57,841 nucleotides of DNA from Candidatus Latescibacterota bacterium (lineage in GTDB: Bacteria; Latescibacterota; UBA2968; UBA8231), in contig RKRN01000062.1 of assembly GCA_007571365.1 (NCBI GenBank), forward strand, positions 1-57,841, given 5' to 3'. Positions 6,964 to 10,839 of the stretch are shown piece after piece. Position 1 is the first letter of the stretch. The number at the start of each line of letters is the position of its first letter. The notes beneath the pieces are model-generated. The model made no database searches. It worked only from the letters and a program-made list of their open reading frames with translations, and was not told the DNA's origin. The position numbers were made by a program, and so were the translations under genes.

Positions 6964-6979
6964 TTGACTAGTGAGTCAA
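6964..6979. promoter_or_regulatory. Palindromic operator candidate
   Basis: TTGACT-AGTG-AGTCAA is a perfect 6-bp inverted repeat with a 4-bp spacer in the intergenic region shared by the PhyH gene (minus) and the sigma/polymerase pair (plus). Its symmetry and position suit a dimeric repressor or activator site. The left arm alone also resembles a -35 hexamer. No regulator gene is adjacent. Confidence 0.35.
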
Positions 6980-7022
6980 CTCAAGAAGGAAGCCAGCCTC
7001 CCAACTTTTTCCCTTCGTCCTT

Positions 7023-7050
7023 GAACCTGTGCTTTCCGGGCGGCGTCTTA
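7023..7050 (+). promoter_or_regulatory. Possible ECF-sigma promoter for the sigma/polymerase operon
   Basis: GAACCT (7023-7028), then 15 bases, then CGTCTTA (7044-7050) matches the general ECF pattern of a GAAC -35 element and a CGTC-like -10 element. It lies just upstream of the sigma gene, as expected for autoregulation. Transcription would start around 7055-7058, leaving only about ten leader bases, with the GGAGG ribosome binding site (7056-7060) almost at the 5' end, which is tight. Pattern match only. Confidence 0.35.
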
Positions 7051-7066: not shown

Positions 7067-7666
7067 ATGCAGATACCGGATTCACAACTCATAGCGCAAA
7101 TAAAAAAACGCGACGCCTGTGCGTTTCAGCAGTTCTTTGAGCGCTATCGGGAGCCGGTCCACCATCACGTGCGCTGCATCGTCCGCGACGATGCGAGTGC
7201 TAACGATGTAGTGCAGGAGGTTTTCTTGCGAGTGTGGAACCGGGCTGGCCAATGGAGCGGTCGCGGCTCTGCGGCTAGCTGGCTGTTCCGCATTGCCACT
7301 CATCTTTCCCTGACGCACCTGCGCACCGTGCGCAGGCGGCGGGAACAACGGCTGGAAGTACTATCCGAAACCGTAGAGCAGGAGACGCACCAAGTACCCG
7401 AATGGATGATTGAGGCCGCGTCCGAGCGCCCCGATGCCCAAGTGGAACGGGCCGATCAGCAGTGCTGGCTCCGGCGACAGGTACAAGAGCTGTCCGAGGA
7501 CAAGCGCGAAGTTTTCCACCTGATCTACGACGCCCAAGTCGAAGTGCGGGACGCCGCCGAACGCTTGGGCATTCCCGAAGGCACCGTAAAGTCGCGGCTG
7601 CACCACGGTCGCCGTCAGCTCTCACAGGCTTGGCAGGCTGTCCATAACCCGGAGGAACGCGAATGA
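7067..7666 (+). CDS. ECF-type RNA polymerase sigma factor paired with a mini-polymerase
   Basis: A 199-residue sigma-70 family factor with only regions 2 and 4. Region 2 is residues 19-92: AFQQFFERYREPV, then DVVQEVFLRVW (core-binding helix) and AASWLFRIATHLSLTHLR. Region 4 is about residues 140-192, with a helix-turn-helix in RDAAERLGIPEGTVKSRLH for the -35 element. The ATG at 7067 is preferred over the TTG at 7064, because GGAGG at 7056-7060 gives correct spacing only for the ATG. Its last codons overlap the polymerase start (ATGA, 7663-7666), the arrangement normally used for an anti-sigma gene; no anti-sigma gene is present here. This implies stoichiometric coupling and a dedicated sigma for the downstream enzyme, which is inference. 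Confidence 0.92.
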   Translation: MQIPDSQLIAQIKKRDACAFQQFFERYREPVHHHVRCIVRDDASANDVVQEVFLRVWNRAGQWSGRGSAASWLFRIATHLSLTHLRTVRRRREQRLEVLSETVEQETHQVPEWMIEAASERPDAQVERADQQCWLRRQVQELSEDKREVFHLIYDAQVEVRDAAERLGIPEGTVKSRLHHGRRQLSQAWQAVHNPEERE

Positions 7667-10600
7667 CATTGAATCTCGACGTACCTTGGCATAGGGAGTC
7701 CTTTGACCTTTTCGTCCAGCAGCGACTGCCCCGGCTCTTGGGCAAGCGCTTGCCGCTGGCTGACTATCAAGTCGAACAACAGGACTCTTATACTTTTTCC
7801 ATCAAACTGAGCTTGGGACTCGGCGATGCCTCAATTGAGGTTGAGTACCGAGATTTGCCTCGGCCCGACCGCGATGGCCTTTTCCACATTGAAGGCAACT
7901 ACCGGGTCGTGGTCCCCTATCCCGACCGGCGCGAACTCGCTCAGGCGCGAATTCTCTGTGTGGGCGAGCAGCTCTACGACTTTATTAACCAAAAATTGAA
8001 GGCGGCCCCCGAGCAGCTGGCTTGGGACGGCGACTTGGTGCGCAACTGGTTGCCGCTGGACGCTTGGCTGCGCGACTTCCACTTAGAGGAAACTTCGCAG
8101 TATCTACAGGCGACCAACTGGCTCGACCGCTATACCCATTTGCGGCGGCTGACTTTGATCCCCGTCGTCGAGCCTTTTGACGACCAAGATGTTTTCCCCG
8201 ACAGCCAATACGGCCTAGTGTGCCCCTACTGCACCCCTGAGGGCCCCAATATCGGTCGAGTGCTGGAAGTGGCTCGCGGTGCCCGCATCCGCGACGGCAA
8301 GCTCAAACGAATCGCCGGCTCGGCTGAGCCCGCCGAAGTTAAAGCCCCCGACAGCATCTTGGGTTTTTCGGCCTCCATGGTGCCCTTCTTAGAACACGAC
8401 GATACCAATCGCGCTCTGATGGGGATCAATATGATGCGCCAGTGGACGAGCGCCGCCGATACAACGGCACCGGTCCACTCTACAGGTTGGTTCGGCCAGC
8501 AGCACGACCAGCGCTTGGCCTCCAAAGGCCACAAACCCGAGCCGGCGTTAGTGCAGACGGGATACGAGCCCGAGGCCGCTGATTTTTGGGGTGGCTACAA
8601 TCTGTTGACCGCCTTCATCATGTGGGACGGGGACACATTTGAGGATGGTTTAGTCATTAGCGAGTCGGCGGCGGCGCGGATGGATTTTCCCACTGCCGTG
8701 GGGGTGGGCGACCGCATAAGCAACCGGCACGGTGCCAAAGGGGTGGTGACGCGCATCCTGCCCGACGCCGACATGCCGCAGTTGCCCGATGGTGCGCCGG
8801 TAGAACTGATCTTCAGCCCCACCAGTATGGTCTCGCGGCTCAATTTTGGCCAGCAGCGCGAAGCAGTCATGGGTCGTCTTGCGCAAGCCGCCGGATGCCC
8901 AGCGGTGGTGCCGCCGTTCCAAGCACCCAGCGAAGAGACGTTAAAAGCGCGTCTGGCGGCGGCGGGATTGCCCGAAGACGGCATGGAGCAACTGACCCTC
9001 CAAGGTACAAAGTTGCCCTATCGCAGTACCGTGGGTTGGGTGTACTGGGGTCGGACCCACATCGCGGCCGAACGCTTGGAAACTGCGGTGGCAGGCGTCG
9101 GCGGACCAGCGCTCGACATGATGGCCTACGGTGCTTTGTGCGAGGCCGGGGCCGTAGCCAACATCCACGCTTTATTCAACACGGCCGCGGCTGAGCGGCC
9201 CGACGCCAATACGCTAGGCCAGCACCTAACCACTGGCCCGGTGTCCCCGGCCCCGCCTCCGGCTCCGCGCTTTGCCTTGTTGCAGCAGTTGTTAGGTATG
9301 GCCGGGATACGGGCCGAGTTAGCGGGCGAGGAGCTGCGCTTTTCCTTTGCCGAGCCCGAGGGGCTGATCTTGGCTCGCCCCGTGCCGCACCCGTGGGCTC
9401 CAGGACGCCAAGTGAGGACGGTGGGAACTCCCGGCGCTTTGCCCACAGGGACCGAATTCGAGCCGATCCGGGGGTGCTACGAGGGTTTGGTCGCAGCTAA
9501 TACGCGTTTGCAGCGCATCGTCGATAGCGAGGCACCCGAGGCTCTGACCGGGCCAGCAGCGGCGCAGGTGATCCAACGGGTGAAGGATTTTTTTGCCGCG
9601 TTATTGCGCCCGGAGCACCTTCACTTCCGGGCTAGACCGCTGTTTAGCGGTCGGGCCGCGCTCGCCTCGGAGTCTGAGTTGAATCTCGACCAAGTGGGCC
9701 TGCCAGAGGAAATGGCTTGGGATTTGTTCGGGCCTCAGGTAGAGCGGGAGATAGGTCGCGCCGAGGCCGTGGCACAGCGTTCGACCCAAGCGACTGAGGT
9801 GCTGGACGCGATCATGGAGCGCTCGTGGGTGCTGCTGTACAGCGCTCAGCGGGTGCTGGTTGACGATGGCCCGGCGTCCACCGCGGTGGTGGCCTTTCGT
9901 CCGCAGCGTTTGGCCGGGGCCGCCGTGTGCGTCCATCCGCGCGTTTGCCGACTGATGGAGCTAGATTTCGACGGCGATCAGATCGAGGTGTTTTTGCCCC
10001 TCACGGAGGAGGCCCAGGCCGAAGCCGAGACCGCGCTGTCGGTGGCCGGACACATACAGCGCGATGCGGATATATGGCGCTACGTGGCCGACAACTACCA
10101 CGGCGTGATATGGGGCTTGGCGCAACTATGCCGCACCGAGGAAGGCCGCGCCGAAGTGGAGCGGCTGACCAAGGGGGCCGTGGATGGCAGTCGGCTATTT
10201 GCTAAGCACGACCTCAACCGCTTGCTAGCTCAGGTGCTGCAGCGCGAGGGTTTACAGCGAGTGCTGGAGGTACTCGACCAGTTGACGCGGCGCGGCTTTG
10301 CGGTCTGCAAACAGTCGGGAGCCTCCTTCAACCCCTTTTTGGGTTCGAGCAAGGAGTGGCCTGAGCAACCCAAAGAGGTCGATAGGGACGAGTGGCAACT
10401 GTACAGCGACGAGCTAGTAGCGGCTTTCTACCAGCAGGCTGAATTCGACGATAACGACTTGGGGCCTTTGGCCCTGTTGTCGCTGTCGGGGGCGCGGGGC
10501 AATCAACAACAGTTGATCCAGTACGTGGGCGGCGGGTTAATCTATCGGGAAGATGGCGGCCTATTCGCCCAGCGCGGTTGTTGGCGCGACGGCCTATCCG

Positions 10601-10839
10601 CGGAGGAGACCAAGGTGCGGGCCCCGCGTGCCTTATGGGGTTTGGCCGCTACCAACCAGGGCTGGACCGAGGCGCGGGAAGCGGCCCAACAGCCCCGCCG
10701 TGCCGATTACCACGTTTTGGGCCGGGCCGCCAGGGCCGCGCAGCCGGGCGTAGTCTTTGCTAGGGCGGCCGAGCGCGGCGAGGTCGAGCCGCTGACCAGC
10801 CTGTCTAGCCGGCTCTTTGCGGGCCTGACGGCGGACTGA
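7663..10839 (+). CDS. Single-chain miniature RNA polymerase (fused beta/beta-prime-like)
   Basis: One 1058-residue ORF with collinear signatures of both large RNA polymerase subunits. Beta-like part: TSQYLQATNW...THLRRL (144-163, rifampicin cluster/fork region), VCPYCTPEGPNIG (186-198), ASMVPFLEHDDTNRALMG (237-254), FEDGLVISE (326-334), GDRISNRHGAKG (349-360; K359 kept, R351 where E. coli beta has K1065), SRLNFGQ (391-397), and a MAYGALCEAGA end near 487-497. A Pro-rich linker (525-535) follows. Beta-prime-like part: clamp-helix segment (605-648), LNLDQVGLPEEMAWDLFGP (673-691), catalytic ELDFDGDQ (766-773; three Asp intact), SGARGN (942-947), bridge-helix start WRDGLS...GLAAT (974-997) and a weak trigger-loop-like end (1029-1054). 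Bacterial beta plus beta-prime total about 2,700 residues; lobe, protrusion, flap, zinc domains and jaw are gone or minimal. DNA-dependent RNA synthesis is the likely activity; compare phage and plasmid one-chain two-barrel polymerases. Confidence 0.9.
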   Translation: MTLNLDVPWHRESFDLFVQQRLPRLLGKRLPLADYQVEQQDSYTFSIKLSLGLGDASIEVEYRDLPRPDRDGLFHIEGNYRVVVPYPDRRELAQARILCVGEQLYDFINQKLKAAPEQLAWDGDLVRNWLPLDAWLRDFHLEETSQYLQATNWLDRYTHLRRLTLIPVVEPFDDQDVFPDSQYGLVCPYCTPEGPNIGRVLEVARGARIRDGKLKRIAGSAEPAEVKAPDSILGFSASMVPFLEHDDTNRALMGINMMRQWTSAADTTAPVHSTGWFGQQHDQRLASKGHKPEPALVQTGYEPEAADFWGGYNLLTAFIMWDGDTFEDGLVISESAAARMDFPTAVGVGDRISNRHGAKGVVTRILPDADMPQLPDGAPVELIFSPTSMVSRLNFGQQREAVMGRLAQAAGCPAVVPPFQAPSEETLKARLAAAGLPEDGMEQLTLQGTKLPYRSTVGWVYWGRTHIAAERLETAVAGVGGPALDMMAYGALCEAGAVANIHALFNTAAAERPDANTLGQHLTTGPVSPAPPPAPRFALLQQLLGMAGIRAELAGEELRFSFAEPEGLILARPVPHPWAPGRQVRTVGTPGALPTGTEFEPIRGCYEGLVAANTRLQRIVDSEAPEALTGPAAAQVIQRVKDFFAALLRPEHLHFRARPLFSGRAALASESELNLDQVGLPEEMAWDLFGPQVEREIGRAEAVAQRSTQATEVLDAIMERSWVLLYSAQRVLVDDGPASTAVVAFRPQRLAGAAVCVHPRVCRLMELDFDGDQIEVFLPLTEEAQAEAETALSVAGHIQRDADIWRYVADNYHGVIWGLAQLCRTEEGRAEVERLTKGAVDGSRLFAKHDLNRLLAQVLQREGLQRVLEVLDQLTRRGFAVCKQSGASFNPFLGSSKEWPEQPKEVDRDEWQLYSDELVAAFYQQAEFDDNDLGPLALLSLSGARGNQQQLIQYVGGGLIYREDGGLFAQRGCWRDGLSAEETKVRAPRALWGLAATNQGWTEAREAAQQPRRADYHVLGRAARAAQPGVVFARAAERGEVEPLTSLSSRLFAGLTAD

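Follow-up and report, generated by a model that had tools for sequence, protein, structure and literature searches.

A one-chain miniature beta-beta' RNA polymerase encoded with an ECF sigma factor in Latescibacterota and other bacteria: a putative minimal sigma-dependent transcription system

We describe a pair of neighbouring genes from a Latescibacterota bacterium which probably constitutes a minimal autonomous sigma-dependent RNA polymerase together with its dedicated ECF sigma factor, both catalysis and sigma binding being putative. We also lean towards seeing in this pair a second self-contained chromosomal transcription system present in several phyla, in which a chain reduced from RpoB and RpoC and an exclusive ECF sigma would operate without flap, trigger loop and alpha. 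The pair is located in a contig of 57,841 nucleotides, here called the window, which is the whole stretch of DNA that was analysed. The features of the window referred to below are the following.

7022-7047, forward strand: candidate promoter of ECF type, TGAAC-N15-GGCGTC, 19 nt ahead of the start codon of sigma
7067-7666, forward strand: sigma gene, 199 aa, ECF-type, Pfam Sigma70_r2/r4_2
7663-10839, forward strand: single-chain miniature beta-beta' RNA polymerase, 1058 aa, intact ORF
8098-8289, forward strand: fork region of beta, residues 146-209, with THLRRL and TPEGPN, Pfam Rpb2_3
8692-8745, forward strand: core of double-psi barrel B, residues about 344-361, GDxxSNRHGxKG
9472-9603, forward strand: beta' clamp helices, residues 604-647, from the profile alignment to E. 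coli beta' 267-309
9964-9978, forward strand: catalytic DFDGD with D768, D770 and D772
10600-10686, forward strand: bridge helix, helix 980-1008 of the model, following the SGARGN F-loop

The preliminary description of this DNA had taken the long frame for a one-chain reduced beta/beta' polymerase with its signatures in order, and this is borne out. A search with RpoB/RpoC-type domain models (Pfam) recovered, in the order to be expected, Rpb2_3 (residues 146-209), Rpb2_6 (E=6e-29) and Rpb1_2 (E=2e-11). In profile-profile alignments, residues 86-556 correspond to E. coli beta 442-1342 (E=2.9e-53) and residues 573-998 to beta' 243-787 (E=1.2e-36). Two further collinear matches, one of 20 residues to beta 127-146 (E=7e-4) and another, weak, to 1331-1354 at the beta' C-terminus (E=0.17), suggest that the ends of the chain may be retained as well.

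Like RpoB/RpoC, the chain has a collinear beta and then beta' core, with fork, both double-psi barrels, the three catalytic aspartates of DxDGD, F-loop, bridge helix and clamp helices. Unlike them, it is one chain of ~1050 residues in place of ~2700 in two, rather than separate large beta and beta' subunits equipped with flap, jaw and trigger loop. Lobes, beta flap, zinc ribbon, rudder and jaw are absent, and a trigger loop is not recognisable. The alignment to the E. coli profiles shows that most of beta 1-441 and the rudder stretch, beta' 310-329, are lost, and past the bridge helix it gives no match to the trigger loop and jaw of beta'. The motif GLTxEExxARAxGAR (near 975-1000) was considered as a trigger loop and rejected, since it aligns with the bridge helix of E. 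coli beta'. In all of the 33 distinct full-length chains that we aligned (998-1095 aa, 50% mean column identity), exactly 14 residues (338-351) replace beta 830-1057, which comprises the flap and its surroundings, and the fork residues R161 and E193 are invariant. An ordinary rpoB (1267-aa frame) and rpoC (1372-aa frame) are found on other contigs of the same genome, so the mini-polymerase coexists with the normal genes as an extra enzyme.

Structure prediction of the chain alone gave a confident AlphaFold model (pLDDT 88.4, pTM 0.86), with separate matches to beta and to beta' chains of known structure; no YonO-type chain was recognised among the best structural hits listed. In the predicted fold, two double-psi barrels face each other and carry DxDxD and a pair of basic residues, which are R/K instead of K/K in the window protein. 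The clamp region is modelled as two long helices (597-621 and 626-647), and an arginine in these retained helices is conserved.

The sigma and polymerase frames are both open and overlap by 4 nt (ATGA), in agreement with the translational coupling to a sigma-70-family gene that had been proposed. The sigma has only sigma2 (residues 23-90) and sigma4 (135-185; both Pfam), with a linker of less than about 50 residues between 90 and 135, as in an ECF. In related genomes the pair is conserved: a sigma gene lies directly upstream of all full-length polymerase genes with available upstream DNA, mostly overlapping (often by ATGA) or at near-zero distance. The gap amounts to 1.3-2 kb in three loci, all from one genus, and to at most ~250 nt in some Poribacteria. 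The paired sigmas form a single clade (SH-aLRT 96), to which none of 26 ECFs taken from four host genomes belongs, and distances in the polymerase and sigma trees correlate with r=0.87, a value that includes a contribution from shared species descent. Their sigma2-sigma4 linker (~90-130), 'vPxWmiDaaslgPd', is unusually conserved and specific to this clade; in ECFs at large the linker passes through the active-site cleft, and its sequence is not as a rule conserved (PMC8103513). The paired sigma thus resembles other ECF (group IV) sigmas in domain content, AAC-type -35, GTC-type -10 and probable autoregulation, and differs from them in its own clade, its conserved linker sequence and its neighbour, which is a polymerase and not an anti-sigma. 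No third gene beside the pair, and with it no co-encoded anti-sigma, was conserved across phyla in the neighbourhood comparison. In the literature searched, which did not extend to subscription papers and preprints, we met no earlier account of a single-chain polymerase with an ECF sigma as partner.

In two Latescibacterota families a DksA/TraR-like zinc-finger gene precedes the sigma-polymerase operon, often with a second unknown gene. Two of these genes are given here.

Locus L042, 11894-12844, reverse strand: DksA/TraR-like gene, homologues in L049, L066 and L078
Locus L072, 1663-2697, forward strand: DksA/TraR-like gene, homologues in L049, L066 and L078

A case of module loss was seen in genome G009, where the polymerase is missing and a truncated sigma remnant is left by the same flanking gene (L196:4793-5233, G009:C605). 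Such joint decay of both genes is expected if sigma and polymerase are useful together.

Just upstream of the sigma gene, TGAAC-N14/15-GGYGTC occurs in 26 out of 30 loci, across phyla, with near matches in two more. Elsewhere in those loci the TGAAC-type motif is not found, except for one doubtful case (L068). When 11 whole genomes were scanned with TGAAC-N15-GGYGTC, the other matches were as frequent as those of a reversed control, and nearly all of them lay inside ORFs. A motif that is present at the operon and at chance level elsewhere supports autoregulation of the operon by the sigma, through what reads as an AAC/CGT-type promoter, and does not support a wider regulon via the same sequence. 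Of the second chromosomal transcription system devoted to one regulon that had been put forward, the chromosomal polymerase-sigma pair is supported, and the regulon is not. Between the sigma gene and a divergent 318-aa gene, we also observe an inverted repeat, TTGAC-N6-GTCAA (window 6964-6979), within a block that is partly conserved in the genus; it is a possible operator.

Implementing these observations, we propose the following mode of action. The chain would be a bacterial beta-beta' fusion with almost every peripheral domain deleted, and templated RNA synthesis would take place where the two double-psi barrels meet; like in YonO, no trigger loop would be involved. The ECF sigma would act as dedicated initiation factor of the mini-polymerase, to which we infer that it binds directly: the retained clamp helices would hold sigma2, the cleft would take up the conserved linker, and recognition of the -35 box TGAAC would fall to sigma4, unaided by a flap. 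The resulting holoenzyme may initiate at sigma-defined promoters, at least its own and possibly at further targets. If the sigma activates its own operon promoter, TGAAC-N15-GGYGTC, expression would follow a positive loop.

Two docking surfaces bear on this model. The clamp helices are the sigma2 dock of ordinary RNA polymerase, and E. coli R275, E295 and A302, which we take to be sigma70 contacts on the clamp, are not kept in the mini-polymerase. The beta flap is the usual dock of sigma4; as it is missing, sigma4 must act without its usual support, which is the weakest point of the holoenzyme model. Consequently, what speaks for the partnership of sigma and polymerase is their linkage, their co-evolution and the conserved linker, not a canonical docking surface.

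The main rival explanation, which we regard as possible although unlikely, is that the sigma uses the host RNA polymerase to switch on its own operon, and that the mini-polymerase is the effector in a promoter-free role, such as transcribing nicked or single-stranded DNA, primer making or RNA copying. The promoter geometry is that of an ordinary ECF promoter, which the host polymerase could serve; sigma4 would not have to do without a flap, no other motif targets were found in the 11 genomes, and ECFs are typically autoregulated (PMC8103513). Left unexplained by this reading, however, are the gene overlap, the conserved sigma linker and the fact that a single clade of sigmas accompanies the polymerase from phylum to phylum. 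Moreover, the clamp helices are kept, whereas YonO shows no sequence homology for them.

Homologues of the polymerase are 89-92% identical within the genus, 55% in another genus of the family and 46-53% in other families of the class; the closest named record is OX638377, an uncultured Latescibacteria chromosome (92% identity). A scan of the collection yielded at least 39 loci, which is an underestimate because only one short C-terminal pattern was used, in MAGs whose possibly erroneous labels are Latescibacterota, Gemmatimonadota, Poribacteria, Hydrogenedentota, Armatimonadota, Chloroflexota, Bacillota and others. Within the phylum of the window, Latescibacterota, the gene has a patchy distribution (21 out of 64 genomes). 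Tree comparison indicates largely vertical inheritance within Latescibacterota and Poribacteria. The single-contig genomes G003, G006, G027 and G030 have the chain unbroken and at almost the same length, and the pair is intact there as well. Hence, it is neither a chimera nor an assembly artefact, and the chromosomal setting first assumed for the locus holds. Of the three findings that the preliminary description had named as fatal to its reading, namely a model without two facing barrels, a lack of homologues conserving the pair, and a chimera or artefact, none was obtained.

It appears improbable to us that the chain is a polymerase of the YonO, crAss gp66 or NCgl1702 type which was domesticated from a phage or mobile element. 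A single chain with neither trigger loop nor flap and a patchy distribution is what one would look for in this case, and YonO-like proteins are also known from bacterial main genomes (PMC5467207). The homology, however, runs along most of beta and beta', with the E-values given above, as opposed to the few active-site residues of YonO (PMC5467207), and inheritance is largely vertical in two phyla. No relatives were found in viral_contigs, and the phage and plasmid collections gave matches only to ordinary rpoB/rpoC-type genes. On these grounds, and with single-contig chromosomes carrying the gene, a phage or plasmid gene was rejected.

YonO of SPbeta and the YonO-like proteins share with the mini-polymerase both barrels on one chain of ~100 kDa and the lack of trigger-loop homology and flap. 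YonO works as a single chain and needs no trigger loop for its activity (PMC5467207), and the relatives of YonO have no flap insert (PMC7824862). YonO is the closest functional analogue; by sequence, the mini-polymerase appears much nearer to RpoB/RpoC. According to its published description, YonO is almost without homology to ordinary RNA polymerase and has no known sigma, whereas the mini-polymerase is clearly RpoBC-derived, chromosomal and sigma-linked. The crAss-like phage gp66, the single-chain RNA polymerase of P23-45 and QDE-1 likewise carry both barrels in one chain, but are phage virion enzymes or an RNAi polymerase and, to our knowledge, are not paired with an ECF sigma.

We also came across a different, giant one-chain polymerase. 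L050:416-6355 (reverse strand, G020:C268) encodes 1979 aa in which alpha N-terminal domains, beta and beta' are fused. L051:12158-15733 (reverse strand), a beta-beta' frame cut by the contig end, and L052:92-4426 (forward strand), also beta-beta', look similar to it. On an IMG/VR viral contig (L197:6001-10917) lies a relative with 32% identity to the alpha-beta-beta' fusion, so such fusions may belong to viruses or be shared with them.

Within the aligned full-length chains, D770 and D772 are present in 33 out of 33 and D768 in 32. At the two barrel-B lysine positions, Lys is found in 28 (first) and 31 (second) of the 33, the window protein having Arg at the first (E. coli K1065). The Poribacteria proteins L067 and L073 are examples in which every catalytic residue is kept. 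Substituted catalytic positions comprise D to Y in L060, K to M in L082 and K to T/A in L076 and L091. In L060 (2241-5357), Tyr replaces the first catalytic Asp before FDGD and barrel B reads HGSRG; this copy is possibly decaying. L076 (5499-8783) and L091 (2894-6172) belong to a divergent Poribacteria branch with Thr/Ala as first barrel-B lysine, perhaps a functionally changed paralogue. For the polymerase, dN/dS is 0.10-0.18, i.e. purifying selection over the whole chain, which rules out a pseudogene. That the chain is a catalytically weak polymerase mimic, which would bind DNA or sigma and act as a regulator of the host's own transcription machinery, would suit these substitutions in few members and the missing trigger loop, but is very improbable in view of the two aspartates kept in every chain, the purifying selection and the activity of YonO without a trigger loop (PMC5467207).

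Taking all facts together, a holoenzyme of mini-polymerase and ECF sigma is favoured by full-length homologues in several phyla, strict linkage, a sigma clade of its own, the correlated trees (r=0.87) and the conserved linker, as well as by a DxDGD motif invariant bar one D, the two-barrel model, dN/dS, the clamp helices, the cross-phylum promoter and the loss in G009. Counted against it are the flap, absent in 33 out of 33 chains, the ECF-geometry promoter open to the host polymerase, the presumed sigma70 clamp contacts that are not kept, the substituted catalytic positions, the patchy distribution and the regulon that was not found in the 11 genomes.

Cellular bacteria are thought to use one core enzyme for all genes, with many interchangeable sigmas. 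If our reading is true, a core enzyme about one third of the usual size with its own sigma would break this rule, and would reveal how large a part of RNA polymerase can be done without. It would also provide a tractable minimal sigma-dependent polymerase for probing the role of flap, trigger loop and lobes in initiation, and mini-polymerase and sigma may serve as a small orthogonal transcription tool. For the uncultured bacteria that carry it beside their normal machinery, the pair may represent a second transcription apparatus of minimal size, encoded in the chromosome.
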